A DNA stretch of 64,000 nt from Bizionia myxarmorum (GTDB taxonomy: Bacteria; Bacteroidota; Bacteroidia; Flavobacteriales; Flavobacteriaceae): positions 1 through 64,000 of the forward strand of contig NZ_VSKK01000005.1 of NCBI RefSeq assembly GCF_008086205.1, written 5' to 3'. This document shows, one piece after another, positions 40,561 to 58,546 of the stretch. The notes below the pieces were generated by a model. The model was given only the letters and a program-made list of their open reading frames with translations, was not told the DNA's origin and did not search any database. A program made the translations under genes and the position numbers. The stretch's first letter is position 1; the number at the start of each line of letters is the position of its first letter.

Positions 40561-40606
40561 CAGTAACTTATGTTACTGTCCAAAATAGGATTGCAGCGTA
40601 TCTTTA
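40561..40606 (+). promoter_or_regulatory. Crp/Fnr-like operator and -7 box of peroxiredoxin
   Basis: CAGTAACTTATGTTACTG (40561-40578) is a palindrome with 7-bp arms and a 4-bp centre. TATCTTTA (40599-40606), a near match to TAnnTTTG, starts 29.5 bp after the palindrome centre. The same geometry occurs before cydA, the SQR-like gene and the tolC gene. Confidence 0.7.
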
Positions 40607-40641
40607 TAGGAAACTTAAAAACAATATTTAAAACAGTCATT

Positions 40642-41304
40642 ATGGAAACAAATGTAAACATGCAGGAGGTAAATTCAATGCCTAGAATCGGTGATCAAGC
40701 ACCAGATTTTGAAGCGGTAACAACGACAGGTAAAATAAAATTTTCTGATTTCGCTAAAGATAAATGGGTCATTATGTTTTCGCATCCAGCCGATTTCACA
40801 CCCGTTTGTACAACCGAGTTATCTGGTTTTGCTAAACGCAAAGGTGAGTTTGATGCCCTGAATACCCAACTTTTAGGTTTAAGTATTGATAGTATTCATT
40901 CGCATTTAGGATGGGTTCAAAACGTTAGAGAAAATACAGGCGTTTATTTTGATTTCCCTATTATAGCGGATATTGACATGAAAGTTGCCAAACTTTACGG
41001 AATGTTGCAGCCTAATGAAAGTGAAACTGCTGCTGTACGCGCCGTTTTCTTTATAGATCCAAGTAAAAAGATTCGATTAATCATGTATTACCCATTAAAT
41101 GTAGGTAGAAATATGAATGAAATCTTACGTGCTTTAGAAGCGCTTCAAATTTCAGATAAACATAAAGTCGCCATGCCATTAGATTGGAAAAAAGGCGATC
41201 GCGTTATTGTTGGTCCTCCAAAAACTTTAGATGAATTGAATGCGCGATTAGCAGATGATTCCGTTGAAAAAGTAGATTGGTACCTGGCTACAAAAAATCT
41301 TTAA
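40642..41304 (+). CDS. peroxiredoxin, Prx6-type
   Basis: A 220-aa peroxidase with peroxidatic Cys56 in HPADFTPVCTTE. The Prx6-type features are GWVQNVRENTGVYFDFPIIA, VRAVFFIDPSKKIR and the C-terminal domain with MPLDWKKGDRVIVGPP. Prx6 enzymes reduce H2O2 and organic or peroxynitrite substrates using one catalytic Cys. Start METNVNMQ at 40642 is preferred, because the longer frame from 40570 begins inside the operator. Expression should follow the Crp/Fnr-like box just upstream. Confidence 0.92.
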   Translation: METNVNMQEVNSMPRIGDQAPDFEAVTTTGKIKFSDFAKDKWVIMFSHPADFTPVCTTELSGFAKRKGEFDALNTQLLGLSIDSIHSHLGWVQNVRENTGVYFDFPIIADIDMKVAKLYGMLQPNESETAAVRAVFFIDPSKKIRLIMYYPLNVGRNMNEILRALEALQISDKHKVAMPLDWKKGDRVIVGPPKTLDELNARLADDSVEKVDWYLATKNL

Positions 41305-41313
41305 TACCTTATG

Positions 41314-41355
41314 TCAGTCTTGATTTAATAAAAAATCAGGACTGATATTTTTTTT
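41314..41355 (+). terminator. terminator between peroxiredoxin and MBL-rhodanese genes
   Basis: TCAGTCTTGATTT pairs with AAATCAGGACTGA (13 bp, one G-U) around AATAAA, followed by a T-rich tract. It may be leaky, since no separate promoter is obvious before 41385. Confidence 0.75.
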
Positions 41356-41384
41356 ATTTACAGTAGAATTTAATACCACTAATT

Positions 41385-42728
41385 ATGATAATAAAGCAAT
41401 TTCAAGATAAGCCTTTAGCTCATTATTCCTATGCTATTATTAGCGACGGTAAAATGGCGTTGGTAGATCCGGCTAGGAACCCTATGCCCTATTATACATA
41501 TGCTGAAGAAAATAACGCCAAAATTGTAGCGGTTTTTGAAACCCATCCGCATGCCGATTTTGTTAGTAGTCATTTACAAATACACGAAGAAAAAGGCGCC
41601 ACCATTTATGTCAGTAAATTGGTTGCAGCCAATTATCCACATCAAGCTTTTGATGATGGTGATACTTTAAAAATGGGGAACGTAACATTTTCCGCCATTA
41701 ATTCGCCCGGCCATTCACCAGACGGTATTACAATTATAGCCAAAGACGAAAAAGATAAACATGCCATGTTTTCTGGAGACACCTTATTTATTGGCGATGT
41801 TGGAAGACCCGATTTGCGTGAAAAAGCAGGAAATATGAGAGCAACCAGAGAAAAACTGGCTAAAAGCATGTATGATACCATTCAAAATAAATTCAATCAT
41901 TTACCAGATGACACATTAGTTTATCCAGCTCATGGCGCTGGTTCTTTGTGTGGAAAAAATATGAGTACAGATCCATCCAGTACTTTAGGCGAAGAACGCG
42001 CTGGCAACTGGGCGTTTAAAAAACAAACGGAAGATGAGTTTGTAAAAACTATTTTAAAAGATCAACCCTTTATTCCTGCCTATTTTGGATATAATGTAGA
42101 TATCAATAAAACGGGGGCTGATAATTTCGTTAAAGAAATAGCTGATATTCCTATCAAAAAAGACGTTAAAAGTCTGCAGGGATCTACTTTAATCATAGAC
42201 ATTAGAGATGAGGCCGATTTCAAAAAGAATCATCTTTCGGGAAGTATCAATATTATGGCGCGAAATGAAGATGATAAAATTGAAACCTGGTTGGGATCTA
42301 TTGTGAAACCTAAAGAGAAATTCTATTTGGTGCTTAAATCCGTTGATGATAAAGATGACATCATCTCGCGTATAGCTAAAATAGGTTATGAAAGTCAAAT
42401 TGAAGCCATCGTAACATTGGCAGATAGTGATTTAGAAAAATCAGAAAGTTTTGATATAGCACATTTCAAAAAAAATAAGGATGCTTATACTATTGTTGAT
42501 ATTCGAAATAAAAGTGAAGTGGCTGAAGGTAAAATTTTTGAAAACGCCATTAATATTCCGCTTAACGAATTGAGAGATTCTGATGAAACCATTCCTGCCA
42601 ACAAACCAATTATGGTGCATTGTGCTGGTGGCTATAGAAGTGCTGCAGGCAGTAGCATCATTCAAAATAAACTTGAAAATGCAACGGTTTACGACTTGAG
42701 TGATGCCGTAAAAGAATTTCAAGAATAA
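41385..42728 (+). CDS. MBL-fold persulfide dioxygenase-like protein with two rhodanese domains
   Basis: A 447-aa protein. The metallo-beta-lactamase domain (1-250) has ETHPHADFVSSHL, SPGHSPDG, FSGDTLFIGDVGRPDL and PAHGAGS, as in ETHE1/persulfide dioxygenases of the blh/CstB group. Rhodanese domain 1 (about 265-350) lacks a catalytic Cys. Domain 2 (about 360-447) has the active loop VHCAGGYRSA. The fusion oxidises or transfers sulfane sulfur derived from sulfide. It lies between the peroxiredoxin and the SoxB-like/DsrE/DoxX operon, and in the same block as an SQR-like gene. Confidence 0.9.
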   Translation: MIIKQFQDKPLAHYSYAIISDGKMALVDPARNPMPYYTYAEENNAKIVAVFETHPHADFVSSHLQIHEEKGATIYVSKLVAANYPHQAFDDGDTLKMGNVTFSAINSPGHSPDGITIIAKDEKDKHAMFSGDTLFIGDVGRPDLREKAGNMRATREKLAKSMYDTIQNKFNHLPDDTLVYPAHGAGSLCGKNMSTDPSSTLGEERAGNWAFKKQTEDEFVKTILKDQPFIPAYFGYNVDINKTGADNFVKEIADIPIKKDVKSLQGSTLIIDIRDEADFKKNHLSGSINIMARNEDDKIETWLGSIVKPKEKFYLVLKSVDDKDDIISRIAKIGYESQIEAIVTLADSDLEKSESFDIAHFKKNKDAYTIVDIRNKSEVAEGKIFENAINIPLNELRDSDETIPANKPIMVHCAGGYRSAAGSSIIQNKLENATVYDLSDAVKEFQE

Positions 42729-42792
42729 AGACGTTTTCAGCTTTTAAGATTTATACTTGAAGGTATTACTATTGAAGATGAAACTATAAAAG

Positions 42793-42829
42793 AAACCGCA
42801 TGAGATTTAAAATCTGATGCGGTTTTTTC
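42793..42829. terminator. bidirectional terminator between convergent genes
   Basis: AAACCGCAT pairs with ATGCGGTTT; GAGATTTAAAATCTG forms the loop region, with a further GATTT/AAATC pairing. T runs follow on the plus strand. It separates the MBL-rhodanese gene from the convergent 5'-nucleotidase gene. Confidence 0.8.
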
Positions 42830-42848
42830 TTGTTATGACTTGAAAAAT

Positions 42849-44510
42849 TTAGTGAAACTTATAATCCGTTCCGGGAACTGTAGAAAAGGAATATTCTCCC
42901 AAATAATCACAATAAGCGCGACCATCTAATTTTGGAGACACTGGCGAATGTACTTTCAAGTATTCTTCAATAACATCATGAATGGTGTAATCCATTTCCT
43001 TCACATCTTTAACATTGGACATGCGGCATAAATTATCAATAGGATCTCCAGGACGCACACAAGCCGAAATGGTATAATATTGGTCGTCTTTCATTTCTTC
43101 ACCCTTCACTTTGATACTCGTTATGCGCTCACCTCTTGGATTCTGACTTTTAAAATCGACATCCATTCCAGAGAACCGGACCAACCAACCGCCAAAACGT
43201 TCCGTTGGGTTTTGAGCAAAGGCATTATGCATTTCTTTTTCTAACCAATCTTTAATTTGTTTTCCAGTAGCTTTTCCTGTTTTAACATTTTCGTTAACTG
43301 GTAGTAAATTCCATAGGTTAGCACGCGTTATTGCAGCAGGTTCGCCATTTACAGGAACCACTGGGTTACCAAAACGGAATCCATTTGAAATAGAGATGTC
43401 TGCTCCTGTTTTCCAACGTGCGGCATCTGTAAACAAGTTATCCATTGGGTTTTCTACCGTTAAATAACGGAACAAAGGTGCGTTTGTATAACCAATAATA
43501 GTTTCTAAATTTTCGCGGTAAGGTTCTTTTTCTTTATTAACCAAAGCTTGCATCTCTTTATCGGCTGGATAAATTTTAGGATCTACATCAATTAAATCAT
43601 AATCATCACTTACCAATTTACCATCCACAAAATTCAAGGTTAATTTTCCAACAAAGGATCCAAAGGCTCCTGGTTCTGTAACTTTGGCGTATTTTCCTTG
43701 AATCATTTCGCGAACGCGCTCATGGGTATCATTTCCTAAAATATAATCCGCATTTTCAGCAATTGGACTATTAGACAGTTCCACTTGCTTAAAAATTCCG
43801 ATATGTGTCACCAAGAAAATAACATCTGCTCTTTCCTTAAATTTAATATCATCAACCAATTGTTTTACGCTACTATCTAATCCGCTAAAAGCAATACCTT
43901 CACTAAAAATTGGGTTTTGTCTTACAGGAATATCAGGATCATTAACACCTATAAATGCCAATCGAATGCCTTCAATTTCCTTAATAGCATAGGAAGGAAA
44001 TAAAGGTTCTTTGCCGTCTTCATGATACATATTTTGAACAATTACATCTGTGTCAAAATCAGTCATGACTTCCATCATAATATCTTTACCATAAACCACT
44101 TCCCAGTTTCCTGGAATAATAACATCATAGCCCATGTTTTTTATAATATTGGACATCACGCGACCTTCAGACAAGGCTGCGTAACCGCTACCTTGAATTA
44201 AATCACCACCATCTACTATTAACGTGCGACCCGGATTTTTTTGTCGCTCCAGATTAAAAATGGTTTTAATATTCGCAAGGCCACCGCGTTCTTTAAAAAC
44301 GATTTCATTATTTTCCCAAAACAACTCGGGATGCGAATCCAATTGTCCATGAATATCCGCCGTTTGAAGAATAGTGATACTCATAGTATCTGAAGTCTTA
44401 GTCATATTTTCTACCACTGTATTTTCTTTTTCAGATTTGCAGGAAACGGAAAGTGCTAACATTCCCATAAGTCCAACGGTTGCTAAAATAGTTTGTTTCT
44501 TATTTTTCAT
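42849..44510 (-). CDS. 5'-nucleotidase/metallophosphoesterase lipoprotein, SoxB-like
   Basis: A 553-aa lipoprotein (signal with LALSVSCKSEKE). The N-terminal metallophosphoesterase domain shows TADIHGQLDSH, IVDGGDLIQGSG, IPGNWEVVYGKD and LVTHIGI. The C-terminal 5'-nucleotidase domain shows FTDAARWKTGADISISNG and PTERFGGWLVRFSGMDVDF. The classical GNHE is GNWE, with VYG following, which recalls the GHWEFTYG of thiosulfohydrolase SoxB. With DsrE, DoxX, rhodanese and SQR-like neighbours, a sulfur-oxidising role is plausible. A nucleotidase role cannot be excluded. It is 3 bp after the DsrE gene in the minus-strand operon. Confidence 0.82.
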   Translation of the reverse strand: MKNKKQTILATVGLMGMLALSVSCKSEKENTVVENMTKTSDTMSITILQTADIHGQLDSHPELFWENNEIVFKERGGLANIKTIFNLERQKNPGRTLIVDGGDLIQGSGYAALSEGRVMSNIIKNMGYDVIIPGNWEVVYGKDIMMEVMTDFDTDVIVQNMYHEDGKEPLFPSYAIKEIEGIRLAFIGVNDPDIPVRQNPIFSEGIAFSGLDSSVKQLVDDIKFKERADVIFLVTHIGIFKQVELSNSPIAENADYILGNDTHERVREMIQGKYAKVTEPGAFGSFVGKLTLNFVDGKLVSDDYDLIDVDPKIYPADKEMQALVNKEKEPYRENLETIIGYTNAPLFRYLTVENPMDNLFTDAARWKTGADISISNGFRFGNPVVPVNGEPAAITRANLWNLLPVNENVKTGKATGKQIKDWLEKEMHNAFAQNPTERFGGWLVRFSGMDVDFKSQNPRGERITSIKVKGEEMKDDQYYTISACVRPGDPIDNLCRMSNVKDVKEMDYTIHDVIEEYLKVHSPVSPKLDGRAYCDYLGEYSFSTVPGTDYKFH

Positions 44511-44513
44511 AAT

Positions 44514-44936
44514 TTATATGCTTAAGCTTTTATATCCTTTTTTTTGTAATTGTAAATTGTATAATATCCCATTTTCTACGGAAGTCACTTTATTGGGAAT
44601 TTTTGTTTTATCCACTTTAAATTTATTCATAGAAAAACCACAGGCTATGATCTCTACACCTGCTTGTTCTGCTTCTTCAATAAAGTTTTTCATTTTTTCA
44701 GGGTTAGTAATATCCCCAATATTCTGACCACAAATAATAACTTTGAAATCACCAAAATCATCACCTTCTTCTGCTTTTAAAGCTTGGGCAGTTAAAATAA
44801 TGGGTTGTAACTGCGGAACTTTTTTGGTTAAAATCACATAGTTATTTTTGCTAGGATCTATTTGTTGCGCCTGAATATCCGTTTGCGCAAAGAATGTAAT
44901 TATGAATAAAATGGAACTAAAAATGTATGTTTTCAT
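44514..44936 (-). CDS. secreted DsrE-family protein
   Basis: A 140-aa protein with a signal peptide (YIFSSILFIITFFAQTDIQAQ) and a DsrE/F-like fold. The key Cys lies in EQAGVEIIACGFSMNKFKVD, where DsrE-like sulfur carriers have their conserved Cys, and a further Cys lies in FKVIICGQNI. It should bind or relay sulfane sulfur in the periplasm. It lies between the DoxX and SoxB-like genes with gaps of 15 and 3 bp, so the three are probably cotranscribed. Confidence 0.85.
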   Translation of the reverse strand: MKTYIFSSILFIITFFAQTDIQAQQIDPSKNNYVILTKKVPQLQPIILTAQALKAEEGDDFGDFKVIICGQNIGDITNPEKMKNFIEEAEQAGVEIIACGFSMNKFKVDKTKIPNKVTSVENGILYNLQLQKKGYKSLSI

Positions 44937-44951
44937 GATGTTTATTTTGTT

Positions 44952-45350
44952 TTATATTAGTTTTTTTTCGGTATCATTCAGAATAAAAAATAGAAGTCCA
45001 CCTAAAATGGCTATGTTTTTAAATAGTGGTCCAAGCGATGTGATTTGTCCGACTTGAACTGTTAAGGTGATGGGAATTAAAACTGCCATCAAAATAATAG
45101 CCGCCCATTTGGTTTTATAGCCTATAAGGAATAAAAAACCTGCCGAGAGCATTACGATACCCGATAGAATAATGAGCCACTGCGGTTCACCGAAAAAATA
45201 GGCAATACCCTTAAAGTTAGCTTGTTCTATTCGTTGCGCTGTTTTTTCCACGTTTAGCAAGTGATTTAAACCTGCAACAAGGAAAATTCCGCTGACTAGT
45301 ATCCGCAGTATCTGTATGGAACGGCGATTGATTAATATATTGGTCGTCAT
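44952..45350 (-). CDS. DoxX family membrane protein
   Basis: A 132-aa four-helix protein of the DoxX type: ILRILVSGIFLVAGLNHLLN (helix 1), PQWLIILSGIVMLSAGFLFL (helix 2), KWAAIILMAVLIPITLTVQV (helix 3) and a final helix before NDTEKKLI. DoxX proteins are linked to thiosulfate:quinone oxidoreductase subunits and to redox stress complexes. It begins the visible DoxX-DsrE-SoxB-like series. The 123 bp upstream contain no obvious box, so it may be transcribed from the promoter at 45845-45887. Confidence 0.85.
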   Translation of the reverse strand: MTTNILINRRSIQILRILVSGIFLVAGLNHLLNVEKTAQRIEQANFKGIAYFFGEPQWLIILSGIVMLSAGFLFLIGYKTKWAAIILMAVLIPITLTVQVGQITSLGPLFKNIAILGGLLFFILNDTEKKLI

Positions 45351-45473
45351 TATAAAAATGTAAAAGAAAGGTTAGAATTATACGAAGCTCTAGCATTCTA
45401 ATTCACCAAACTGTATAATTACAGAAATTGAATTAGCGCAAAACAACGATTTGAATTGTGTGGGAATAGAGAA

Positions 45474-45836
45474 TTAAGCCAACCTAGGTGGTGGCGATAC
45501 GCTTTCTAAAAAGCGATAATTTAAAAGGGATGGAAAATAATCATCGAAAACAGCAATGGATGTTGAAGAATGGGTTTCCCAAGAAAAAAGATCAAAATGA
45601 AATGCGGTATTACAATTAGTGCTAATACTCATTAATTGAACAGCACCCTTATCTTGTTGTGAGAAATTAGTGTTTTCCTTCGCTTTTTTTGAAGGATTAT
45701 CTTTCTTACAATACGGATTCAACAACGTAATTTCACCGTCATTAAAAAACATTTTAAAGCCATTAGCATCTACAGCAAAAAGTTTTGCCGTAAAAATAAA
45801 TATCATGAGGAACGCTATGTAATTTTTTGTTTTCAA
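45474..45836 (-). CDS. small secreted protein with SPPPRLA tail, unknown
   Basis: The frame opens at ATG 45851, but that ATG lies inside a TATGTTTG promoter box, so TTG 45836 (MKTKNYIAFLMIFIFTAKLF) is preferred. It gives about 120 aa with a signal peptide ending at KLFAVDANG. The mature part has Cys residues (NPYCKKDN, STNCNTAF) and the tail FLESVSPPPRLA, which I recall in small Bacteroidota proteins near metal or redox genes. The function is unknown. It is first in the minus-strand run toward DoxX, DsrE and the SoxB-like gene. Confidence 0.55.
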   Translation of the reverse strand: MKTKNYIAFLMIFIFTAKLFAVDANGFKMFFNDGEITLLNPYCKKDNPSKKAKENTNFSQQDKGAVQLMSISTNCNTAFHFDLFSWETHSSTSIAVFDDYFPSLLNYRFLESVSPPPRLA

Positions 45837-45844
45837 TGTTAGGA

Positions 45845-45887
45845 CAAACATAAAGAATGGCTCGGAACTTTGTGTAACTTTTGTTAC
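45845..45887 (-). promoter_or_regulatory. Crp/Fnr-like operator and -7 box, minus strand
   Basis: GTAAC (45874-45878) and GTTAC (45883-45887) flank TTTT. On the minus strand TATGTTTG (45852-45845), a perfect TAnnTTTG, starts 28.5 bp after the centre, 1 bp closer than at the other sites. Confidence 0.65.
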
Positions 45888-45975
45888 TTATGGATGTTAA
45901 AGTATTATTAAAACACGGAAATATCATTTTGCGAATCCAACATTAACATTATAATTTCAATCTTTTTTGACAAAT

Positions 45976-48000: not shown

Positions 48001-48290
48001 AATTTTGAATAGAGCTAAAAAATTAAACTAATATTTAAATGAAAAATAATGGGTATCTACTTAATGGTATAGTCTTTTAAAGCTAGATTTTAATAATAAA
48101 GTATAGTAAATGATTCCAGTTTCATTTCAATCAAAAATAAGTAATAGTTTGGCTATTATGGGTAATCAAATTGTTTGGAAACGTTAAATATTCGTGAAAT
48201 TATTGAGCTTTTTTTGTGATTTGAAATAGTACTATAAGTTTAATGGGAATTAACTTTCTTATAAGAAAACCTATTATTTAAATGGTGCGT

Positions 48291-48334
48291 GCTACTTATG
48301 TTACACAAATTAATGTCAAGTTGTTTCACCTTTG
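48291..48334 (+). promoter_or_regulatory. Crp/Fnr-like operator and -7 box of cydAB
   Basis: GCTAC-TTAT-GTTAC (48291-48304) has one canonical half-site and one degenerate one. CACCTTTG (48327-48334) starts exactly 29.5 bp after its centre, as at the stronger sites. The weak left half may reduce affinity. Confidence 0.55.
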
Positions 48335-48364
48335 CATATAATTTCAATTTAAGAAAGCTTCATT

Positions 48365-49696
48365 ATGGAAGACATGCTCTTTTATGATAGAATGCAATTT
48401 GCATTTACTATCACATTTCATTATCTATTTCCCCAGTTAACCATGGGACTATCCTTAATGATTGTTTATTTTAAATGGAAATTTTTAAGAACCAAAATTT
48501 ACAAATACAATGATGCTGCCAAATTTTGGATGAAAATTTTTGCGCTTAATTTTGCAATGGGTGTCGTTACCGGAATCCCAATGGAGTTTCAGTTTGGAAC
48601 CAATTGGGCGAAATTCTCCGAACTTACAGGTAGCATAATCGGGCAAACACTCGCCATGGAAGGCATGTTTTCCTTTTTTTTAGAGTCTTCTTTTTTAGGT
48701 CTCTTTTTATTTGGAGAAAAATTGTTAGGGCATAAACTGCATTTTGTTACAGGATTTTTAGTTTTTCTGGGTTCTTGGGCTAGTGGGTACCTAATTATTG
48801 CTACACATTCTTGGATGCAATATCCGGTAGGTTATGAAATTTTAGAGAATGGCAAGTTTGTTCTAAATAATTTTAGTGCTTTATTTTCCAATCCTTGGCT
48901 ATTGCCCTCTTATTTGCATAACCAAGCTGGTTCTATGGTAACGTCCGCATTTGTGGTAGCTGCTGTGGGTGCATTTTACTTGCTAAGTAATAAACATAAT
49001 GAATTTGGAAAGCTATTTGTTAAAACAGGTGTTGTTTTCGGATTGATTTCAAGTTTATTAGTTGCTTTTCCAACTGGTGATTTAATTGCTAAAAATGTGG
49101 CAAAATATCAACCTGTAACCTTTGCCGCTATGGAAGGTGTTTTTGAAACCGAAGAAGGTGGATCTGAAATTATACTAATTGGCCAACCCAATATGCTGGA
49201 GAAAAAGTTAGATAATAAAATTGCCGTTCCTAATATTTTAAGCTTTCTAACCTATCAAGAATGGAATGCTGAAATTAAAGGTTTAAATGAGTTTGATGAA
49301 AAAGATTATCCAACCAATGTCCCAGGATTGTATTATGCCTACCATATAATGGTTGGTTTAGGTACCATTTTTATTGGGTTAATGCTTCTGGCAACCGTAC
49401 AATTATTTAGGAAAAAACTTTACAAAACAAAATGGATTTTATGGTCGCTTATGTTTATGCTCCCTTTTCCATACATAGCTAACACTACTGGTTGGTATAC
49501 TGCTGAATTAGGCCGTCAACCTTGGTTGGTTTATAACTTACTTCGTACTGCAGACGGCGCATCACCAACCGTTTCATCTGGAAACACCTTATTTACATTA
49601 CTTGGTTTTATGGGCTTGTATTTGCTTTTAGGATTATTGTTTTTAATGTTAGCAGGAAAAATAATTAATAAAGGACCTGAACTAAATCAACACTAA
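48365..49696 (+). CDS. cydA: cytochrome bd ubiquinol oxidase subunit I
   Basis: A 443-aa subunit of the bd oxidase, which reduces O2 with menaquinol at high affinity. Haem-ligand regions are AFTITFHYLFPQLTMG (His near 19), SYLHNQAGSMVTSAFVVAA (His near 183), and the Met region further on; TGWYTAELGRQPW is the subunit I signature. GVVTGIPMEFQFGTNWA is also typical. The periplasmic Q loop is short compared with E. coli CydA. It is followed 3 bp later by cydB. The operator upstream suggests low-oxygen or redox control. Confidence 0.95.
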   Translation: MEDMLFYDRMQFAFTITFHYLFPQLTMGLSLMIVYFKWKFLRTKIYKYNDAAKFWMKIFALNFAMGVVTGIPMEFQFGTNWAKFSELTGSIIGQTLAMEGMFSFFLESSFLGLFLFGEKLLGHKLHFVTGFLVFLGSWASGYLIIATHSWMQYPVGYEILENGKFVLNNFSALFSNPWLLPSYLHNQAGSMVTSAFVVAAVGAFYLLSNKHNEFGKLFVKTGVVFGLISSLLVAFPTGDLIAKNVAKYQPVTFAAMEGVFETEEGGSEIILIGQPNMLEKKLDNKIAVPNILSFLTYQEWNAEIKGLNEFDEKDYPTNVPGLYYAYHIMVGLGTIFIGLMLLATVQLFRKKLYKTKWILWSLMFMLPFPYIANTTGWYTAELGRQPWLVYNLLRTADGASPTVSSGNTLFTLLGFMGLYLLLGLLFLMLAGKIINKGPELNQH

Positions 49697-49698
49697 CT

Positions 49699-50775
49699 AT
49701 GGAATTATTTTGGTATATCGTTTTAATGGGCATGCTAGCCGGTTATGTAATTTTGGATGGTTATGATTTTGGGGCTGGAATTATTCACTTATTTTTTGCA
49801 AAAACGGAAAAGGATAAAAAAGCAATCACTCACGCCATTGGACCTTTTTGGGATGCTAATGAAGTTTGGCTTATTGCTGCCGGTGGTATTTTGTTTTTTG
49901 CTTTCCCAACTTTATACGCTTCGGCTTTTAGTGGATTTTACTTACCATTAATTATGATTTTATGGCTATTAATTTTTCGAGCCATTGGCTTGGAATTACG
50001 TAGCCAAATTAAAAATAGTATGTGGGAAGCCATTTGGGACAAAGCTTTTGGCGTATCCAGTTTACTTTTAGCACTTTTTTTTGGCATTGCTCTCGGAAAT
50101 ATTGTTAGAGGTGTTAATTTAGGTAATGTAGTAAATGGCGTGTCGGCCTATGAAGGCCACTACTTCTTTTTACCTCTATGGAATCAAACTTTTAGTCCGC
50201 AAGCTGAACAATTAGGCGTTATAGACTGGTTCACCTTACTATTAGGAATAATAGGAGTTGTTGCTCTAACCATACATGGTGCTAACTGGATTATCTTTAA
50301 AACGAATTCCGATTTAAACCCTAAACTTAAAAAAGTGGTTTTTAATCTTAATTTTGTACTTCTTGCATTAGTTATTACATCTCTTTTAATTTGGCACATT
50401 ATTGAACCCAAGCCATTTCATAATTTCATGCAAAATCCGTGGTTATGGATATTTCCAGCCATTACTTTTACAGGATTATTTGGAATTTTTAAGGTTAAAT
50501 CTTATAAAAAACATGGATTAGGTTTCTTATTTTCATCGCTGTTTCTTTTTGGTGGATTCGCTTCAACGGTAGCATCTATTTTCCCTAAAGTGCTTCCCTC
50601 AACCAATTCTGTAAATCCCGATTTAACTATATATAATACTGCCGCGGAAAATTACGGCTTGTCCGTGGGAATTTATTGGTTTGCTATTGCTATAGTTTTA
50701 GTTGCCGTTTACATGGTGATTCAATATAAAGTTTTTAAAGGAAAAATGGACGATGTTGGATACGGCGAACATTAA
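49699..50775 (+). CDS. cydB: cytochrome bd ubiquinol oxidase subunit II
   Basis: A 358-aa membrane subunit with about eight helices. Signatures are YVILDGYDFGAGIIHLFFAK, THAIGPFWDANEVWLIAAGG and IMILWLLIFRAIGLELRSQI. It stabilises the haem-bearing subunit I. The gap after cydA is 3 bp and the next small gene starts 18 bp later, so all three are likely cotranscribed. Confidence 0.95.
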   Translation: MELFWYIVLMGMLAGYVILDGYDFGAGIIHLFFAKTEKDKKAITHAIGPFWDANEVWLIAAGGILFFAFPTLYASAFSGFYLPLIMILWLLIFRAIGLELRSQIKNSMWEAIWDKAFGVSSLLLALFFGIALGNIVRGVNLGNVVNGVSAYEGHYFFLPLWNQTFSPQAEQLGVIDWFTLLLGIIGVVALTIHGANWIIFKTNSDLNPKLKKVVFNLNFVLLALVITSLLIWHIIEPKPFHNFMQNPWLWIFPAITFTGLFGIFKVKSYKKHGLGFLFSSLFLFGGFASTVASIFPKVLPSTNSVNPDLTIYNTAAENYGLSVGIYWFAIAIVLVAVYMVIQYKVFKGKMDDVGYGEH

Positions 50776-50792
50776 TCATTTAAAATAATATT

Positions 50793-51101
50793 ATGACTGG
50801 AACTTTAATTTCGCTTATTAGTATTTTTACAGGAATTCTGGGCGCTAACGTATTCGGTTATTTCAGAAAAAAATATTCCTTCGGCTTCACAGGAAATACT
50901 ATAATTGGTGTTTTTGGAAGTATTTTATTTATTAAATCGTTTGGTAGATTGGGTTTTGATCCTTGGTCTATAATGTACAATGATTCTTTTAATAGCAACT
51001 TATTTATTTTGAACCTAATCGTCTCATTTTTAGGTGGAATAATAGGTGTTTTAGTATTTAAATCACTAATTTATAAGATGAATAAAGATTCAATTCAATA
51101 A
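50793..51101 (+). CDS. small membrane protein, GlsB/YeaQ-like
   Basis: A 102-aa protein with three hydrophobic segments: LISLISIFTGILGANVFGYF, TIIGVFGSILFIKSFGRLG and LFILNLIVSFLGGIIGVLVF. The Gly-rich helices and final basic tail (KSLIYKMNKDSIQ) resemble the transglycosylase-associated/GlsB family, although identity is weak. It lies 18 bp after cydB, as a possible accessory to the oxidase; no CydX-like peptide was found otherwise. Confidence 0.6.
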   Translation: MTGTLISLISIFTGILGANVFGYFRKKYSFGFTGNTIIGVFGSILFIKSFGRLGFDPWSIMYNDSFNSNLFILNLIVSFLGGIIGVLVFKSLIYKMNKDSIQ

Positions 51102-51113
51102 TCGTTTGGCTAT

Positions 51114-51157
51114 GTAACTAAAGTTACCGAGCACCATTAAAAAGCGTCCTATCTTTC
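51114..51157 (+). promoter_or_regulatory. Crp/Fnr-like operator and -7 box of SQR-like gene
   Basis: GTAAC-TAAA-GTTAC (51114-51127) is followed by TATCTTTC (51150-51157), which starts exactly 29.5 bp after the palindrome centre. The gene starts 17 bp after this box. Confidence 0.7.
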
Positions 51158-51173
51158 ATAAAAATTCAAAGCA

Positions 51174-52631
51174 ATGGCTAAAATTGTAATTCTAGGTGCA
51201 GGTATTTCGGGTCATGTTGCGGCAGCGCATTTACGCCGGAAATTAAATAAAGATCACGAGGTTATCGTGGTATCGCCTAACAGTAATTATCAATGGATTC
51301 CGTCCAATATTTGGGTTGGAATTGGTAGAATGAAATCTAAAGAAATTTTATTTCCACTCGCGCCACTTTATAAAAAGAAAAACATTGGTTTTATACAAGC
51401 CAAGGCGGTTACTTTTCATCCGGAAGGCGATGCTATAGAAACAAAACCTTATATTTTTGTAGAATATGTAACGGCTGATAAAAAGGGCCAACAAGAAAAG
51501 GTTACGTATGATTATTTAATTAATGCCACAGGTCCTAAACTAAATTTTGAAGGCACCGAAGGCTTAATTCCTGGAGAAAATAAAGCTTATTCTGTTTGTA
51601 CCTATACACATGCTGATCATGCTTGGGAAGGTTTAAATGCCCTTATCCAAGAAATGAAACAAGGCAAAAAAGCCAAAATACTAATTGGAACGGGTCATGC
51701 CAAATCAACCTGTCAAGGTGCTGCTTTTGAGTATATTTTAAATGTAGAACAAGAGTTAGTTAAACATGGCGTTCGCGATATGGCTGAAGTTACTTGGATT
51801 TCCAACGAATATAAACTAGGAGATTTTGGTATGGACGGTATGCTTTTAAGTTATGGGAGCATGACAATGAAATCCCATGAAATGATTGAAATGATTTTTG
51901 AAGATCGCGACATTAAATGGATTTTAGGCGCTGGCGTTAACAAAATTGAAGATGGCATTGCCCATTACGAAAACCTAGATGGCGAAACAAAATCTGAAAC
52001 CTATGATTTTGCCATGCTAATTCCTGCTTTTTCAGGTCATGGTTTCAAAGCCTTTGATAAAAACGACATGGATATCACCCATAAACTTTTTAAAGGATTT
52101 ATGATTGTTGATGCTGATTATACGCCAAAACCTTATGAAGAATGGTCGGTTAAAGATTGGCCTGAAACCTATCAAAACCCGAGTTACCAGAATATTTTTG
52201 CGCCAGGAATTGCTTTTGCTCCGCCGCACAGTATTTCCAAACCGCGAACCAATAAAAATGGAACGGAAATATTTCCAGCGCCACCAAGAACAGGAATGCC
52301 TTCAGGGATTACCGCAAAAATAGTGGCCGATAATATTATTGATTCTATTAAAAACGGTAAAGAATCTCGTGAACATAAAGGTTCTTTGGGAAATATGGGC
52401 GCAGCTTGTATTGCATCGGCTGGATTTGGGATGACGTCAGGAAGTGGTGTCAGTATTACGACATTCCCGATTGTTCCGGATTATGAAAAATATCCAAAAA
52501 CACAAGGTAGACAGTTAAGTAAAACCTTTGGTGAAATCGGTTTAGCCGGACATTGGCTCAAGCTAACCTTACATTACGCCTTTATTTACAAAGCAAAAAT
52601 GAAACCATTTTGGTGGTTGATTCCCGAATAG
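51174..52631 (+). CDS. sulfide:quinone oxidoreductase-like flavoprotein
   Basis: A 485-aa FAD-dependent oxidoreductase. The N-terminal FAD-binding motif is ILGAGISGHVAAAHLRRKL, the second nucleotide motif is near LIGTGHAKSTCQGAAFEY, and the C-terminus is membrane-associating with WLIPE at the end. Cysteines lie in YSVCTYTHADHAW, AKSTCQGAA and GNMGAACIASAGFG, which could form the redox-active site of an SQR. SQRs oxidise sulfide to polysulfide and reduce quinone, which fits the MBL-rhodanese and bd oxidase. The stop codon lies within the first 33-bp repeat unit. Confidence 0.85.
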   Translation: MAKIVILGAGISGHVAAAHLRRKLNKDHEVIVVSPNSNYQWIPSNIWVGIGRMKSKEILFPLAPLYKKKNIGFIQAKAVTFHPEGDAIETKPYIFVEYVTADKKGQQEKVTYDYLINATGPKLNFEGTEGLIPGENKAYSVCTYTHADHAWEGLNALIQEMKQGKKAKILIGTGHAKSTCQGAAFEYILNVEQELVKHGVRDMAEVTWISNEYKLGDFGMDGMLLSYGSMTMKSHEMIEMIFEDRDIKWILGAGVNKIEDGIAHYENLDGETKSETYDFAMLIPAFSGHGFKAFDKNDMDITHKLFKGFMIVDADYTPKPYEEWSVKDWPETYQNPSYQNIFAPGIAFAPPHSISKPRTNKNGTEIFPAPPRTGMPSGITAKIVADNIIDSIKNGKESREHKGSLGNMGAACIASAGFGMTSGSGVSITTFPIVPDYEKYPKTQGRQLSKTFGEIGLAGHWLKLTLHYAFIYKAKMKPFWWLIPE

Positions 52632-52814
52632 GAATCAAACTTAAAAGAGTTGATTCCCGAATAGGAATCAAACTTAAAAGAGTTGATTCCCGAGTAGGAA
52701 TTAAACTTAAAAGAGTTGATTCCTGAATAGGAATCACATCTAAACGAGTTGATTCCTGAATAGGAATCACACTTAAAAAGGATGATTCATGAATAGTAAT
52801 AAAATTGTGAAAAG
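52617..52814 (+). repeat. six 33-bp tandem repeats with internal hairpins
   Basis: Units start at 52617, 52650, 52683, 52716, 52749 and 52782. Each carries TTGATTCC-CGAATA-GGAATC, an inverted repeat with 8-bp arms, and a TTAAAAGAG-like spacer. Similarity falls along the array: units 1 and 2 are identical, unit 6 is degenerate. Unit 1 covers the end and stop codon of the SQR-like gene. The array appears to be generated from that gene end. It could serve as a series of terminators or mRNA-stability hairpins. Confidence 0.9.
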
Positions 52815-52869
52815 TAGAATTTAATAAAATAAAATAAGAGGTTTAATTCAGTTACAAAAGCATACGATT

Positions 52870-53007
52870 ATGACACAACGAATTTCAAAATATCAAAGGT
52901 TTAAGATGATGAATCCCATTCTTCAGTTTTTCAAATACATTTATTTAAGTCTAAAAATAATGATAATTGTAGCTGGAGGTCATGGTGGCACTCGAAAAGC
53001 AAACTGA
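52870..53007 (+). CDS. 45-aa conserved-looking peptide ending GHGGTRKAN
   Basis: The frame is MTQRISKYQRFKMMNPILQF, then FKYIYLSLKIMIIVAGGHGG and TRKAN. The basic N-terminus, amphipathic middle and terminal GGHGGTR look like a small membrane-associated protein. I recall similar flavobacterial peptides ending in GHGGTR, but cannot verify this. It is followed 33 bp later by a good terminator, which supports it as a real transcript end. Confidence 0.5.
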   Translation: MTQRISKYQRFKMMNPILQFFKYIYLSLKIMIIVAGGHGGTRKAN

Positions 53008-53040
53008 TGTGATGGTCAGTATTTATTGGTGATTAGTGGA

Positions 53041-53073
53041 AAGCACTCATGTAAAAATGGGTGCTTTTTTTGT
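53041..53073 (+). terminator. Rho-independent terminator after the 45-aa gene
   Basis: AAAGCACTCAT pairs with ATGGGTGCTTT (11 bp, one G-U) around GTAAAA and ends in seven T residues. It serves the plus-strand genes ahead of the convergent pncA. Confidence 0.8.
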
Positions 53074-53094
53074 ATTAAGGGAGTAATCAAAGAT

Positions 53095-53700
53095 CTAAAT
53101 TTCTTCAGAAGAAATAATTTGAATACCCAGTTTTATCATTTCCTGTTTAAGATCTTTAAAATTTTCAACATCTAGAGGTTGAGAAGCATCTTCAACATAA
53201 AAACATGCAAAGCCTTCCTTAAAAGCATCATAAATTGAAAAGTATACGCAAATATCGGCGGCTAGGCCGCATAGAAATAATTGAGAAGTTCCTTTTTCTT
53301 TTAAATAGCCCGCCAACCCTGTAGATTTTAAATGGCCATTATCATAAAAAGCACTGTAACTATCTATGGTTTTGTCCGTTCCTTTTCTAAAAATAGCCTC
53401 CCAAGGTTTCGTGTCTAAATCAGAATGAAACTCCGCACCTTCTGTTCCTTGAACGCAGTGATCTGGCCAAAGAGTTTGGGGTTTACCTTGAATTTCAATT
53501 TCATCAAAAGTCTTTTTACCCGAATGATTAGAAGCAAAACTCACGTGATCTTTAGGATGCCAATCTTGTGAAGCGACTACCAGATCAAATTTATATTGCA
53601 TGGTATTAATAACAGAAACAATTTTATCTCCGTTTGGAATGGCCAGTGAGCCACCAGGCATAAAATCGTTTTGAACATCAATTATAAGAAGGGTTTTCAT
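53095..53700 (-). CDS. pncA: nicotinamidase
   Basis: A 201-aa isochorismatase-fold enzyme that deamidates nicotinamide to nicotinate. Catalytic Asp8 is in IIDVQNDF, and the metal-binding set lies in VASQDWHPKDHVSFA. The Lys is in the FRKGTDK region, and the nucleophile Cys lies in LCGLAADICVYFS. It lies 131 bp from the nicotinate phosphoribosyltransferase gene on the same strand, so both steps of NAD salvage sit together. Convergent with the SQR-like/45-aa side. Confidence 0.92.
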   Translation of the reverse strand: MKTLLIIDVQNDFMPGGSLAIPNGDKIVSVINTMQYKFDLVVASQDWHPKDHVSFASNHSGKKTFDEIEIQGKPQTLWPDHCVQGTEGAEFHSDLDTKPWEAIFRKGTDKTIDSYSAFYDNGHLKSTGLAGYLKEKGTSQLFLCGLAADICVYFSIYDAFKEGFACFYVEDASQPLDVENFKDLKQEMIKLGIQIISSEEI

Positions 53701-53831
53701 GGTTATGTTGATTCTAATTTAAAATGTTTTTTTGACACGAATTTCACTAATGATCGCGAATAACAATTCTTTTATATTAATGTAACCTATCGAATATTAG
53801 GTGAATTACAATTTGAATTTATAAACTTTCT

Positions 53832-55229
53832 CTAGAACTTGTGCTTCGCAACCAAGGTATCACGTTCTTGTTTAAGTTCCTTACTCAATCCAATTTTATA
53901 TATGTGCGGGTTTTGAAATCGTTTATATTCTTCAGGAAGTTTTTCTAAACGCGATTTGGAATAGGCAGCAATTTCAGCAACAGAACGCTGTGGCTGTGTT
54001 TTCTTTCCTTTTTCCATCACCTTTTGCAATAAAGGTTCTTGATTGAAATCATTCAGCGTTAAACTTTTGGAAGTATCATAAGCATGCGTCATTTCAGTTA
54101 TTTTATCTTCTTTGAAAAGTGCAATAGCATCCGCACCGTAAAACATGCCGTTTTGATCCAGCATTCGGTAAACTTGCTTTTTATGTGGTAATGAAACCTT
54201 AATTATATTTTCAGACAATTTAATACGCGGTTCGCCATTATATTCCGATAATTTATAGACGCCATCTAATGCGGCGTCTGGTTTTCCGGTTACTAAATTT
54301 GTTCCTACTCCAAAAATATCTATAGGTGCACCTTGTTCCTTCAAACTTTTTATTACAAATTCATCCAATTGATTGGATGCTACAATTTTCACATAGCCCA
54401 AGTCTGCATCATCCAACATTTTTCGTGTTTTCTTGGATAAATAGGCCAAATCACCACTATCCAAACGAACGCCGAGTAATTTTTCGCCTTGACTTTCCAT
54501 TTCCTTGGCCACTGTAATGGCATTTGGCAATCCACTTTTAAGTGTATTGTATGTATCCACTAAAAGCACGCAGTTTTTTGGTCTGTATTGCGCAAAATCG
54601 CGAAAGGCTTGCAATTCGTCTTCGTAACTTTGAATAAAAGAATGAGCCATGGTTCCAGATGAAGAAATGTTATAATCTTCCGCAGCCTTCACATTACTTG
54701 TGCTATCAAAACCACCTATAGCTGCAGCTCTAGAAGCATAATATCCGCCAGTGGCATGGGCACGACGCAATCCCATATCCAATAAAATTTCATTTTTTGC
54801 ACTATGACGAATGCGACTTGCTTTCGTGGCAATTAACGTTTGGAAATTAAGCATATTCAGCAAAAATGTTTCAATAATTTGTGCTTCAATAATATTTGCT
54901 TCAACCTGTAGAATGGGACGATTTGGAAAAACAACATCGCCTTCTTGGCTGGAATATATGGTTCCTTTAAATTGAAAATCTTTTAAATATTCTAGAAAAT
55001 CTTTTTCAAATCCATGTTGTTCCAAATATGAAATGTCCGACGATGAGAATTTAAGCGTTTCAAGAACATTCAACACATCTTCCAAACCAGCAAAAATGGC
55101 GTAACCACCTTTAAACGGATTGTTTCTAAAGTAATAATCAAAAACCGCGTGTCCAACTGGTTTTGTAGCAAAATAAACTTGTGCCATGGTTAATTGATAG
55201 AGGTCGGTATATGCAGCAGTAAAATTCAT
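53832..55229 (-). CDS. pncB: nicotinate phosphoribosyltransferase
   Basis: A 465-aa NAPRT making nicotinate mononucleotide from nicotinate and PRPP. Family features are TDLYQLTMAQVYF at the start, FDYYFRNNPFKGGYAIFAGL, MGLRRAHATGGYYASRAAAI, SSGTMAHSFIQSYEDELQAF, LVDTYNTLKSGLPNAI, VRLDSGDLAYLSKKTRKMLD and FGVGTNLVTG. It is upstream of pncA on the same strand. Its length fits the Bacteroidota members of the family. No operator like those nearby was seen in its upstream region. Confidence 0.93.
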   Translation of the reverse strand: MNFTAAYTDLYQLTMAQVYFATKPVGHAVFDYYFRNNPFKGGYAIFAGLEDVLNVLETLKFSSSDISYLEQHGFEKDFLEYLKDFQFKGTIYSSQEGDVVFPNRPILQVEANIIEAQIIETFLLNMLNFQTLIATKASRIRHSAKNEILLDMGLRRAHATGGYYASRAAAIGGFDSTSNVKAAEDYNISSSGTMAHSFIQSYEDELQAFRDFAQYRPKNCVLLVDTYNTLKSGLPNAITVAKEMESQGEKLLGVRLDSGDLAYLSKKTRKMLDDADLGYVKIVASNQLDEFVIKSLKEQGAPIDIFGVGTNLVTGKPDAALDGVYKLSEYNGEPRIKLSENIIKVSLPHKKQVYRMLDQNGMFYGADAIALFKEDKITEMTHAYDTSKSLTLNDFNQEPLLQKVMEKGKKTQPQRSVAEIAAYSKSRLEKLPEEYKRFQNPHIYKIGLSKELKQERDTLVAKHKF

Positions 55230-55290
55230 AAATGTCGATTTTTAAAGCTTCAAGATATCCAAAAATCGGCTAATTCCTTGTTAAGAATAT

Positions 55291-55333
55291 CAAAAAAAAA
55301 AGGGAACACATTTAAATTAAATGTGTTCCCTTT
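55291..55333 (-). terminator. terminator downstream of DnaJ-KTSC gene
   Basis: AAAGGGAACACATTT (55299-55313) and AAATGTGTTCCCTTT (55319-55333) form a 15-bp perfect stem with a 5-nt loop. Read on the minus strand it ends in a run of T residues, as needed for the gene at 55414. Confidence 0.85.
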
Positions 55334-55413
55334 AAAAATTATATAAACGTATCAGCCTTAATCCATTCGAAATTTCATCAAAGCATTTTCGAATAAATAT
55401 GAAATGAAAAATT

Positions 55414-55863
55414 TTAAACCTGCTCTAAATCTCTTTTAGATTTTCTGTAAAGATAATTAGGATAAATACTACGCTTGGCAAAACGATTCAATTTATCGCT
55501 ATTAATCATTTTAATATAAACCGGCTTGGTTACACCAAAATACTCATAAGTAGAACCATCCAAAAAGGTGATTTCAAGTAATAAACCTTTATGTTGAAAG
55601 TCAGAAATACCAGAATTAGTAATGGTTTCATTATAATTATCTAAATTGGATTCCAGCGTTTCAGGAGCTATGCTCACTAAAAAATGGTATCCATCAATAA
55701 TTTTACGACTTTGAATTTCCGCTTCTTCTTGTAAAGCATCTCCGTTCTGAAATTTATCAGGATGCCATTCCTTCACTAAATCACGGTAACTCTTTTTTAA
55801 AGTCTTTAATTCCAATTCATTTTCAACTCCAAAGAGTTTCTTGTATTCACTTATGCGTTTCAT
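55414..55863 (-). CDS. J-domain protein with C-terminal KTSC domain
   Basis: The start is ATG 55863 (MKRISEYKKLFGVENE). The longer TTG frame from 55887 begins inside the -7 box. The 149-aa product has a J domain in the first 75 residues (SYRDLVKEWHPDKFQNGD with the HPD motif) and a KTSC domain at the end (LLEITFLDGSTYEYFGVTKP, then YRKSKRDL). J proteins recruit DnaK; KTSC is thought to bind nucleic acids or act in regulation. It is divergent from the TolC operon. Its partner is unknown. Confidence 0.85.
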   Translation of the reverse strand: MKRISEYKKLFGVENELELKTLKKSYRDLVKEWHPDKFQNGDALQEEAEIQSRKIIDGYHFLVSIAPETLESNLDNYNETITNSGISDFQHKGLLLEITFLDGSTYEYFGVTKPVYIKMINSDKLNRFAKRSIYPNYLYRKSKRDLEQV

Positions 55864-55884
55864 ATCAAATTTTATTTGAGGGCG

Positions 55885-55892
55885 CAAAAGTA
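55885..55892 (-). promoter_or_regulatory. -7 box of the DnaJ-KTSC gene
   Basis: On the minus strand the sequence is TACTTTTG, a perfect TAnnTTTG. It lies 22-29 bp upstream of ATG 55863 and decides the start in favour of that codon. No GTAAC palindrome is present at the corresponding distance. Confidence 0.65.
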
Positions 55893-56033
55893 CGATTTAA
55901 TCTAATATAAATTACAAATCTTTCATATTTCAACAGTTAGTATGGCTTTACTCCTATTTATTAGTTGAAAATAAAATATAAAACAGGAGCGATTTCCTAA
56001 AAATTAAAAATTATTTCCCTTGTTTTCGGCTTG

Positions 56034-56077
56034 GTAACATTGGTTACTGACCAACATGAATTAACAGTCTACATTTG
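56034..56077 (+). promoter_or_regulatory. Crp/Fnr-like operator and -7 box of the TolC-RND operon
   Basis: GTAAC-ATTG-GTTAC (56034-56047) is followed by TACATTTG (56070-56077), a perfect TAnnTTTG, starting exactly 29.5 bp after the centre. The upstream in-frame start at 56031 overlaps the operator and is not used. Confidence 0.75.
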
Positions 56078-56096: not shown

Positions 56097-57404
56097 ATGA
56101 AAAGAATAATTTACACAGCCATATTTTTTAGTCTGTTTTGGAATTACAATCTGCAAGCTCAAGAGCTGGTTGAAATTTCAAAAACGGAAGTTTTACAGAA
56201 GGTTTCTGAAAATAACACTTCTATTAAAATTTCGGAAAAAGCTTTTAACATGGCTAAAGCAGATTTTAATCAGACGAACGCGGTGTTTTTACCAAACATT
56301 ACAGCTAGTCATACAGGAATTGCTACAACCAATCCTTTAATGGCATTTGGTTCTAAATTAAATCAGGAAATATTAACGCAAAATGATTTTAATCCTGCGA
56401 TGCTTAATGATCCGTCGCAGATTCAAAGTTTTGCTACCAAATTCGAAATTCAACAACCTATAATTAATGTAGATGGAATTTATCAACGAAAAGCTGCAAA
56501 ATCGAAAATGGAAGCTATGGCATTGCAAACGGAGCGCACCATGGATTATTTAGATTTCGAAGTTGAAAAAGCCTATATGCAATTACAATTAGCTTATAAA
56601 GGCGTTGATGTTTTAGATCAAGCTTTAGAGGCTTCCAATGCCAATAAACAATTAGCAGACAATAGTTTCAAGCAAGGTTACTTGCAACGCGCCGATGTTT
56701 TAAATGTGGAGGTTCGCGTAACGGAAGTTCAAAACCAGTTGCAAATGGCTAAAAGTAATGTGCAAAATGCATCAAACTATTTGTCATTTTTAATGAATGA
56801 TGAATCTTATGTTATTTATATACCAAGTGATAGTTTAACGGTTTCAACTTTATCCATTGCTGACAAAACAATTTCTGAAAGCCGTTCAGATATTAAAGCT
56901 ATGGGATTAGCTACTAACGCCTATGAAGCCATGAATAAGGCCGATAAAATGGCGTTTTTACCCAGACTAAATGCTTTTGGAAGCTATGAATTATATGATG
57001 ATCAGGTATTTCAAGGCGATGCTAGCGGGTATTTATTTGGTGCCCAATTAAGCTGGGATGTATTTCAAGGTTCTAAACGTTTTGGGAAAGCCCAAAAGAG
57101 TAAAGCAGAATTGGAAAAATCTAAATTAGAATACACACAGTATGTTTCCCAAAGCAATTTAGAATTGCGCAAAGCGAAACGTGCGTTTTTAGATGCTGAA
57201 AATAAGTTGACATTAACCACTTTGGCTTTAGAGCAATCTGAAGAATCTTTACGAATCAGAACCAACAGATTTCAAGAAGGTCTAGAAAAAACGTCAGACT
57301 TACTGACAGCTGAAACGCAGTTTTCTCAAAAAAAGTTAGAATACTATCAAACCATTTTTGAATACAATTACGCACAAGCGTACTTACAATTTTTAACTAA
57401 ATAA
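56097..57404 (+). CDS. TolC-family outer-membrane efflux protein
   Basis: A 435-aa outer-membrane channel subunit with a signal peptide (MKRIIYTAIFFSLFWNYNLQAQ). Two repeats follow the TolC pattern of long helices and short strands: NMAKADFNQTNAVFLPNITAS and KADKMAFLPRLNAFGSYELY, with LELRKAKRAFLDAENKLTL and LRIRTNRFQEGLEKTSDLLT near the end. Start 56097 follows a -7 box by 20 bp. It is 61 bp ahead of the adaptor gene, so the three efflux genes form one operon. Confidence 0.9.
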   Translation: MKRIIYTAIFFSLFWNYNLQAQELVEISKTEVLQKVSENNTSIKISEKAFNMAKADFNQTNAVFLPNITASHTGIATTNPLMAFGSKLNQEILTQNDFNPAMLNDPSQIQSFATKFEIQQPIINVDGIYQRKAAKSKMEAMALQTERTMDYLDFEVEKAYMQLQLAYKGVDVLDQALEASNANKQLADNSFKQGYLQRADVLNVEVRVTEVQNQLQMAKSNVQNASNYLSFLMNDESYVIYIPSDSLTVSTLSIADKTISESRSDIKAMGLATNAYEAMNKADKMAFLPRLNAFGSYELYDDQVFQGDASGYLFGAQLSWDVFQGSKRFGKAQKSKAELEKSKLEYTQYVSQSNLELRKAKRAFLDAENKLTLTTLALEQSEESLRIRTNRFQEGLEKTSDLLTAETQFSQKKLEYYQTIFEYNYAQAYLQFLTK

Positions 57405-57465
57405 AAACCAATCATATTTAGCGCTCTACAAGTGCTTACATTATTAAAACACTAATTCAATAACA

Positions 57466-58545: not shown

Positions 58546-58546
58546 A

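Follow-up and report, generated by a model that had tools for sequence, protein, structure and literature searches.

Several described regulators resemble the system reported here, a set of five palindromes of the type GTAAC-N4-GTTAC, one of them weak, each standing upstream of a -7 promoter box in the first 64,000 nucleotides of contig NZ_VSKK01000005.1 of Bizionia myxarmorum (C16:1-64000 of the 3.36-Mb genome, G000; hereafter the window), together with P0001, a Crp/Fnr-family protein encoded elsewhere in the same genome. NtcA of cyanobacteria, which exerts nitrogen control via 2-oxoglutarate, recognizes the operator GTA-N8-TAC and activates from near -41.5, and FNR holds a 4Fe-4S cluster through N-terminal Cys ligands. 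HcpR2, a Crp/Fnr-family regulator known in Bacteroides among others, has the consensus GTAACnnnnGTTAC (PMC1274295), and in the literature searched the string GTAACNNNNGTTAC occurs in this one paper. In Hyphomicrobium, SoxR and SoxT serve a sulfur-oxidation regulon in which a YeeE-like transporter takes part in signaling (PMC11582611), although SoxR is a repressor of the ArsR type (PMC12423496) and not a Crp/Fnr protein. In Acinetobacter, a Crp-like protein carries heavy persulfidation when sulfide is present, with an effect that was not established (PMC7315123). We found no description of the present regulator or regulon among the papers listed by searches of the open literature, at the level of titles and abstract openings.

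We propose, with a probability of about 0.85, that the five sites are operators of one Crp/Fnr activator, P0001, and that they define a sulfide and sulfane-sulfur regulon triggered through a Cys loop. P0001 would bind GTAAC-N4-GTTAC centered at -41.5 and, once bound, would activate TAnnTTTG promoters in a class II manner. The enzymes under its control would handle sulfide and sulfane sulfur (a sulfide:quinone oxidoreductase [SQR]-like protein, a metallo-beta-lactamase [MBL]-rhodanese protein that is persulfide-dioxygenase-like, and rhodanese and thioredoxin proteins), and further members would be TauE, YeeE, resistance-nodulation-division (RND) transport, a peroxiredoxin, DsrE/DoxX/SoxB-like proteins and bd oxidase. 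The trigger would be sulfane sulfur, acting on a conserved Cys-x5-Cys-Cys at the place where Crp holds cyclic AMP (cAMP). In this model we infer that P0001 itself binds the sites, that it activates, and which signal it answers.

Placement of the palindromes

Four exact GTAAC-N4-GTTAC palindromes lie in the window, where the same arms occur at no other spacing from 0 to 20 (Table 1). A first-pass annotation had described these four and a weaker palindrome before cydA, with their boxes, coordinates and distances from palindrome center to box (29.5 bp, once 28.5 bp), all of which proved correct on re-measurement. With up to two mismatches allowed, palindromes in the window are as frequent as chance predicts (21 found, 22.0 expected), and the cydA site therefore cannot stand alone. 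Nine exact palindromes are present in the genome, where about 3.6 are expected from base composition, but a reversed-pattern control gives 11; the palindrome count alone is thus weak evidence, and placement is what counts. All nine have a box matching TAnnTTTG at 5/6 or better at +21 or +22 on one strand, a placement that the window and three other stretches of the genome, 121,442 positions in all, show at a background rate of 4.8% (binomial p 1.3e-12), and six of the nine have a 6/6 box, against 0.29% in the background. When three mismatches were permitted in the combined pattern of palindrome, N22 and box, the genome gave 26 forward and 22 reverse matches, compared with 50 and 44 in the control, and therefore only the eight matches with zero or one mismatch were used. 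Identical 44-base two-mismatch matches lie at C5:1414621 and C5:1698409 (L021 and L022), and this pair is probably a repeated gene.

The same layout recurs around the regulator gene in relatives, where we used the best 80 of 562 confirmed regulator matches, chosen by regulator and covering 1.47 Mb (the named loci). At least one exact palindrome is present in 77 of the 80, giving 223 at an arm spacing of 4, whereas each other spacing from 0 to 15 gives 0 to 4. Among 446 oriented palindromes, 113 have TAnnTTTG at +22, and no other offset has it more than twice; on one or both strands, a box matching at 5/6 or better at 21 to 23 accompanies 204 of the 223 sites. When columns were counted over 208 distinct sites, preselected for a box of at least 5/6 so that the box columns are conditioned, T stood at -49 in 89%; T-G at -34/-33 (64% and 61%) occurs on the promoter side only and perhaps represents the remains of a -33 element. 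Because the TAnnTTTG box spans -12 to -5 in Flavobacterium psychrophilum (PMC9723704), the palindrome center falls at -41.5; the first-pass annotation had put the sites near this position, with which both the box-offset enrichment and the published box position agree. A fixed, asymmetric layout centered at -41.5 implies class II activation, and the sequences have both the position and the fixed register that would be expected of the Crp type.

Conservation with the regulator

In 199 genomes of the family, a search for the palindrome followed by N20-23 and TAnnTTTG found 293 sites in 134 genomes, against 15 sites for the reversed control. A P0001 relative at E <= 1e-40, which we took as presence of the regulator, occurs in 158 of the 199, and the motif is found in 131 of these 158 and in 3 of the 41 others (Fisher p 9e-20, phylogeny ignored). 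Among the genomes with the closest regulators (E <= 1e-75) the motif is present in 99 of 106, and five genomes with a single first-look P0001 candidate have one site each. The operators, their spacing and conservation, their co-occurrence with the regulator, the targets and the conservation of the Cys are direct results of computation, and the two comparisons that the first-pass annotation had suggested, a genome-wide scan for the motif at fixed spacing and an inspection of promoters in related Flavobacteriaceae, gave enrichment and conservation, respectively. That the five matches are a chance pattern selected by eye would suit the chance-level two-mismatch sites and the lack of excess exact palindromes in the genome, yet we give it a negligible probability in view of the boxes at 9/9 palindromes, the spikes in spacing and offset, and the 293 family sites against 15.

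P0001 as the candidate regulator

The gene for P0001 lies among TauE, MBL-rhodanese and YeeE genes that bear the same sites; in the sequence inspected, none precedes P0001 itself. The protein belongs to the Crp/Fnr superfamily (PF00027, 37.8 bits, cut-off 27.5; PF13545, 34.1 bits, cut-off 27), and the structure predicted for the L112 orthologue resembles CRP/FNR folds, with a best template modeling (TM) score of 0.70. Its recognition helix reads Ser-Arg-Val-Val. Among the four Crp/Fnr proteins of the genome above the Pfam cut-off, only P0001 has Arg-Val at 180/181, the three others keeping Glu at 181, and the 80 named orthologues have Val at this position in 79 cases and Glu in one. Residues 180/181 have been tied to the operator in comparative work (PMC1274295). 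With high probability P0001 is the regulator of these sites, and the suggestion of the first-pass annotation that one Crp/Fnr-family protein is responsible still provides the best candidate, although its gene is outside the window. In L133, from a metagenome-assembled genome, the regulator match (10001-10633) has a stop codon within the matched stretch.

P0001 can be set apart from the described groups. It falls well short of the cAMP-responsive CRP family (NF008732, 49.5 bits, cut-off 266). By alignment with solved structures it shares the Arg-Val recognition-helix pair with NtcA, but the aligned loop of NtcA is without the Cys motif and the NCBIfam NtcA score of P0001 is 35.4 (cut-off 244.95); a literature search on the NtcA recognition residues found nothing. 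The best solved-structure profile match is 3dv8, a Crp/Fnr regulator of Eubacterium rectale (3.1e-20), which keeps the first two loop Cys but has Ile for the third and a His-Arg-Glu-Val helix.

The operator itself could indicate an HcpR2 regulon, that is, control of hybrid cluster protein and nitrogen-oxide stress genes by the regulator of GTAACnnnnGTTAC. The published consensus is identical, and the palindrome directly precedes hcp, as in HcpR2-type use, in two genomes outside the family, G418 (C12:36024-37719, L265; box at +23) and G426 (C3:770309-772002, L222 and L264; box at +22). However, HcpR2 has Pro181 and hcp as a target (PMC1274295), whereas P0001 has Val181 and sulfur targets; no hcp gene (PF03063, E <= 1e-10) was found in the B. 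myxarmorum genome or in G107, G113, G154 and G457, and neither G418 nor G426 has a relative of P0001 at E <= 1e-20. P0001 thus agrees with HcpR2 in operator and departs from it in hcp regulation and residue 181, and we consider an HcpR2 regulon very unlikely here. Since the hcp sites of G418 and G426 occur without a close P0001 relative, one motif appears to serve two regulons in the phylum.

Genes behind the sites

Within the window, the peroxiredoxin likely starts at 40642, since the mechanical start at 40570 falls inside the operator, and the small protein likely starts at 45806, since its mechanical start at 45851 falls in the -7 box. The MBL-rhodanese protein, which from its architecture would be persulfide-dioxygenase-like, is probably encoded on the same transcript as the peroxiredoxin.

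Outside the window, exact sites precede genes for a DsrE-like protein (C5:773424) and for a 132-aa protein that is itself upstream of an RND pump (C5:909676). They also precede genes in a cluster at C5:1.130-1.138 Mb, including one for an MBL-rhodanese protein; in this cluster a rhodanese gene with a site heads a series that continues with HMA, cytochrome/Tll0287, thioredoxin and TPMT genes, and another site precedes a fatty-acid-hydroxylase gene that diverges from YeeE. On the YeeE strand, the palindrome at C5:1136975 lacks a good box at +22 and may serve only the divergent gene. One-mismatch sites precede TauE (C5:1131028, with a box at +22) and a 219-residue frame (C5:955928, L016, with TACCTTTG at +22); the latter is thioredoxin-family-like by eye and is a possible extra member of the regulon.

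The targets observed in relatives are similar. At the named loci, which surround the regulator so that counts favor its neighbors, 167 of 206 oriented downstream proteins match the B. myxarmorum regulon set: MBL-rhodanese 48, TauE 36, YeeE 17, SQR-like 12, regulator 11, rhodanese 11, fatty-acid hydroxylase 10, cytochrome/Tll0287 7, peroxiredoxin 6, TolC 4, cydA 4 and the L012 small protein 1; by eye, the 39 unmatched ones include DUF983-like (16), SulP-like (6) and DUF2892-like (4) proteins. From other genomes 53 sites were available, a single listed one per genome, and 40 of these match the set (TolC 16, MBL-rhodanese 7, TauE 6, rhodanese 3, the window small protein 3 and five other targets once each), and the 13 unmatched include, by eye, five SulP-like and two DUF983-like proteins. 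Of 30 regulator genomes, 8 yielded the SQR-like gene, and of 12 others none did; 7 of 8 orthologues have an upstream palindrome with at most one mismatch, with a box at +22 of at least 5/6 in four and of 4/6 in three. The same site before sulfide-oxidizing or sulfide-detoxifying genes in relatives looks like a shared sulfide-response circuit, and these targets and their conservation agree with the earlier view that one redox/sulfur regulon spans all five promoters. In the sample from other genomes the TolC-HlyD-RND run is the commonest target (16/53 sites); RND pumps are not usually linked to sulfide.

Membership of cydAB, also put forward in the first-pass annotation, draws its support from the relatives, the site in the window being weak. 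Orthologues of cydA have a site in 3 of 6 regulator genomes and in 0 of 2 without the regulator, and the closest (91%, G113) has an exact palindrome with TACTTTTG. The gene pair fits a sulfide regulon because sulfide leaves the bd oxidases of E. coli active (PMC4815019). With cydAB among the targets and P0001 in the Crp/Fnr family, a low-oxygen regulon of the FNR kind could also be considered, but this is quite unlikely. P0001 has only three Cys, all in a Cys-x5-Cys-Cys loop (Cys93, Cys99 and Cys100), so that the N-terminal cluster ligands are missing and it falls outside FNR; the operator differs from TTGAT-N4-ATCAA; and targets of oxygen respiration are few (cydA in 4 of 206 at the named loci, and 0 of the 53 sites elsewhere). 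The low-oxygen wording of the first-pass annotation is better replaced by sulfide stress, the targets being mostly sulfur genes and centering on sulfide and sulfane sulfur.

Table 1. Operators, -7 boxes and genes of the proposed regulon. Positions are those of the window unless a contig is given; the TolC-HlyD-RND run extends over 56097..62467, with names that do not come from a family search. Distances are from palindrome center to first base of the box. ORF, open reading frame.
Feature	Position	Strand	Basis or remark
Operator GTAACTTATGTTAC, peroxiredoxin/MBL-rhodanese run	40563..40576	+	exact match; box at +22
-7 box TATCTTTA	40599..40606	+	5/6; 29.5 bp
Operator GTAACAAAAGTTAC, small-protein/DoxX/DsrE/SoxB-like run	45874..45887	-	exact match; box at +21
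-7 box TATGTTTG	45845..45852	-	6/6; 28.5 bp
Weak operator GCTACTTATGTTAC, cydAB	48291..48304	+	two mismatches
-7 box CACCTTTG	48327..48334	+	5/6; at +22, 29.5 bp
Operator GTAACTAAAGTTAC, SQR-like gene	51114..51127	+	exact match
-7 box TATCTTTC	51150..51157	+	5/6; 29.5 bp
Operator GTAACATTGGTTAC, TolC-HlyD-RND run	56034..56047	+	exact match
-7 box TACATTTG	56070..56077	+	6/6; 29.5 bp
Peroxiredoxin	40642..41304	+	Pfam AhpC-TSA, Redoxin, 1-cysPrx_C; NCBIfam NF009668 above cut-off
MBL-fold + rhodanese protein	41385..42728	+	Pfam Rhodanese, Lactamase_B; NCBIfam equivalogs all below cut-off
SoxB-like/5'-nucleotidase-family protein (tentative)	42849..44510	-	Pfam 5_nucleotid_C; TIGR04486 SoxB 253.5 bits, cut-off 550
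DsrE-like protein (tentative)	44514..44936	-	Pfam DsrE 20.2 bits, cut-off 22.7 not reached
DoxX protein	44952..45350	-	Pfam DoxX
Small protein	45474..45806	-	ORF; no Pfam family
cydA, bd oxidase	48365..49696	+	ORF; named by eye; orthologues found
cydB, bd oxidase	49699..50775	+	ORF; named by eye; orthologues found
SQR-like flavoprotein (tentative)	51174..52631	+	Pfam Pyr_redox_2; NF049943 61.8 bits, cut-off 525
TolC-like protein	start 56097	+	named by eye
HlyD-like protein	57466..58545	+	named by eye
RND pump	58616..61834	+	named by eye
ORF	61916..62221	+	no Pfam family
DUF2892-like protein	62240..62467	+	named by eye
P0001, Crp/Fnr-family gene	C5:1130339-1131019 (L010:8340-9020)		outside window; adjoins TauE

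The Cys loop and the signal

The Cys-x5-Cys-Cys motif is present in 80/80 named regulators (79 by script, L181 by eye), and in 49 diverse homologues Cys93 is kept in 49, Cys99 in 35 and Cys100 in 30. In the L112 model (mean predicted local distance difference test [pLDDT] score 87.4) the strands at 65-72 and 92-96 flank the Cys, and the loop aligns with the segment of CRP in which cAMP is bound. The motif is a candidate sulfane-sulfur sensor, and sulfane sulfur would be the most economical signal given the sulfide and persulfide enzymes among the targets. The regulon could instead be one of sulfur with another signal, such as sulfite, thiosulfate, thiol/peroxide redox state, a bound ligand or a metal, as TauE, SulP-like and YeeE transport and the peroxiredoxin suit sulfite or thiol redox as well. 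The invariance of the first Cys in 49/49 diverse homologues speaks against this, as does the place of MBL-rhodanese and rhodanese proteins (persulfide-related by architecture) among the commonest targets, and we regard another signal as possible, though on balance doubtful.

Besides the control count of 11 palindromes, several results weigh against a sulfane-sulfur regulon under P0001. The regulon label set was built from the sites of B. myxarmorum, so that the label counts are partly self-chosen, and several enzyme names carry scores below the curated cut-offs. The Fisher test is blind to phylogeny, and many of the genomes lacking the regulator are small; the site is absent in 27 of the 158 regulator genomes, including 7 of the 106 with the closest relatives. 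Across 296 genomes of the phylum, regulator relatives at E <= 1e-20 number 117 and genomes with motif and box 30, so that distant relatives are mostly without this exact motif. Finally, it is around the Cys loop that the L112 model is least certain (block means 71 and 60).

Variation at residue 181

The Bacteroidota may have a sulfane-sulfur sensor of their own, a Crp/Fnr subfamily in which a Cys loop replaces the cAMP cassette and in which a change from Glu to Val at 181 went with a change of operators from GTGAY-N4-RTCAC to GTAAC-N4-GTTAC, the sulfur targets being kept; we hold this tentatively, at slightly less than even odds. The 49 diverse homologues have Val at 181 in 32 cases and Glu in 17. 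Among 28 full-triad genomes, the 23 with Val types have 49 GTAAC and 8 GTGAY sites, and the five with Glu types have 2 GTAAC and 11 GTGAY sites. In four of the five genomes with Glu types, 7 of 11 GTGAY sites (one a weak match) lie before homologues of the regulon; in the remaining genomes of the search this holds for 1 of 15. Unrelated genes have GTGAY sites before them as well, and these sites may belong to other Crp/Fnr proteins. Against a Val/Glu operator switch, G352 and L121 have Glu yet GTAAC sites, which weakens the idea that the operator is set by residue 181, and because as few as three changes suffice on the tree, the sites are not independent. The correspondence between residue and operator is therefore a lead and not a proof. 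At one locus (L276, G283:C2:434900-440800) a Glu-type regulator paralogue has a GTGAC palindrome just after it; the same locus also has YeeE preceded by a GTAAC palindrome, and a Val-type paralogue lies a few kb away.

The variation at 181 provides a natural test of how Crp-type specificity changes with targets held constant. For the family as a whole, the arrangement gives an operator rule that can be scanned in any genome, GTAAC-N4-GTTAC-N22-TAnnTTTG, together with the caution that in Flavobacteriaceae the published HcpR2 motif marks a different regulon. A single circuit would explain why a bd oxidase occurs together with an RND pump and with several proteins whose role is unknown, and for the response of this large bacterial family to sulfide the outcome is a candidate regulator, a list of targets and a possible Cys sensor that can be tested.

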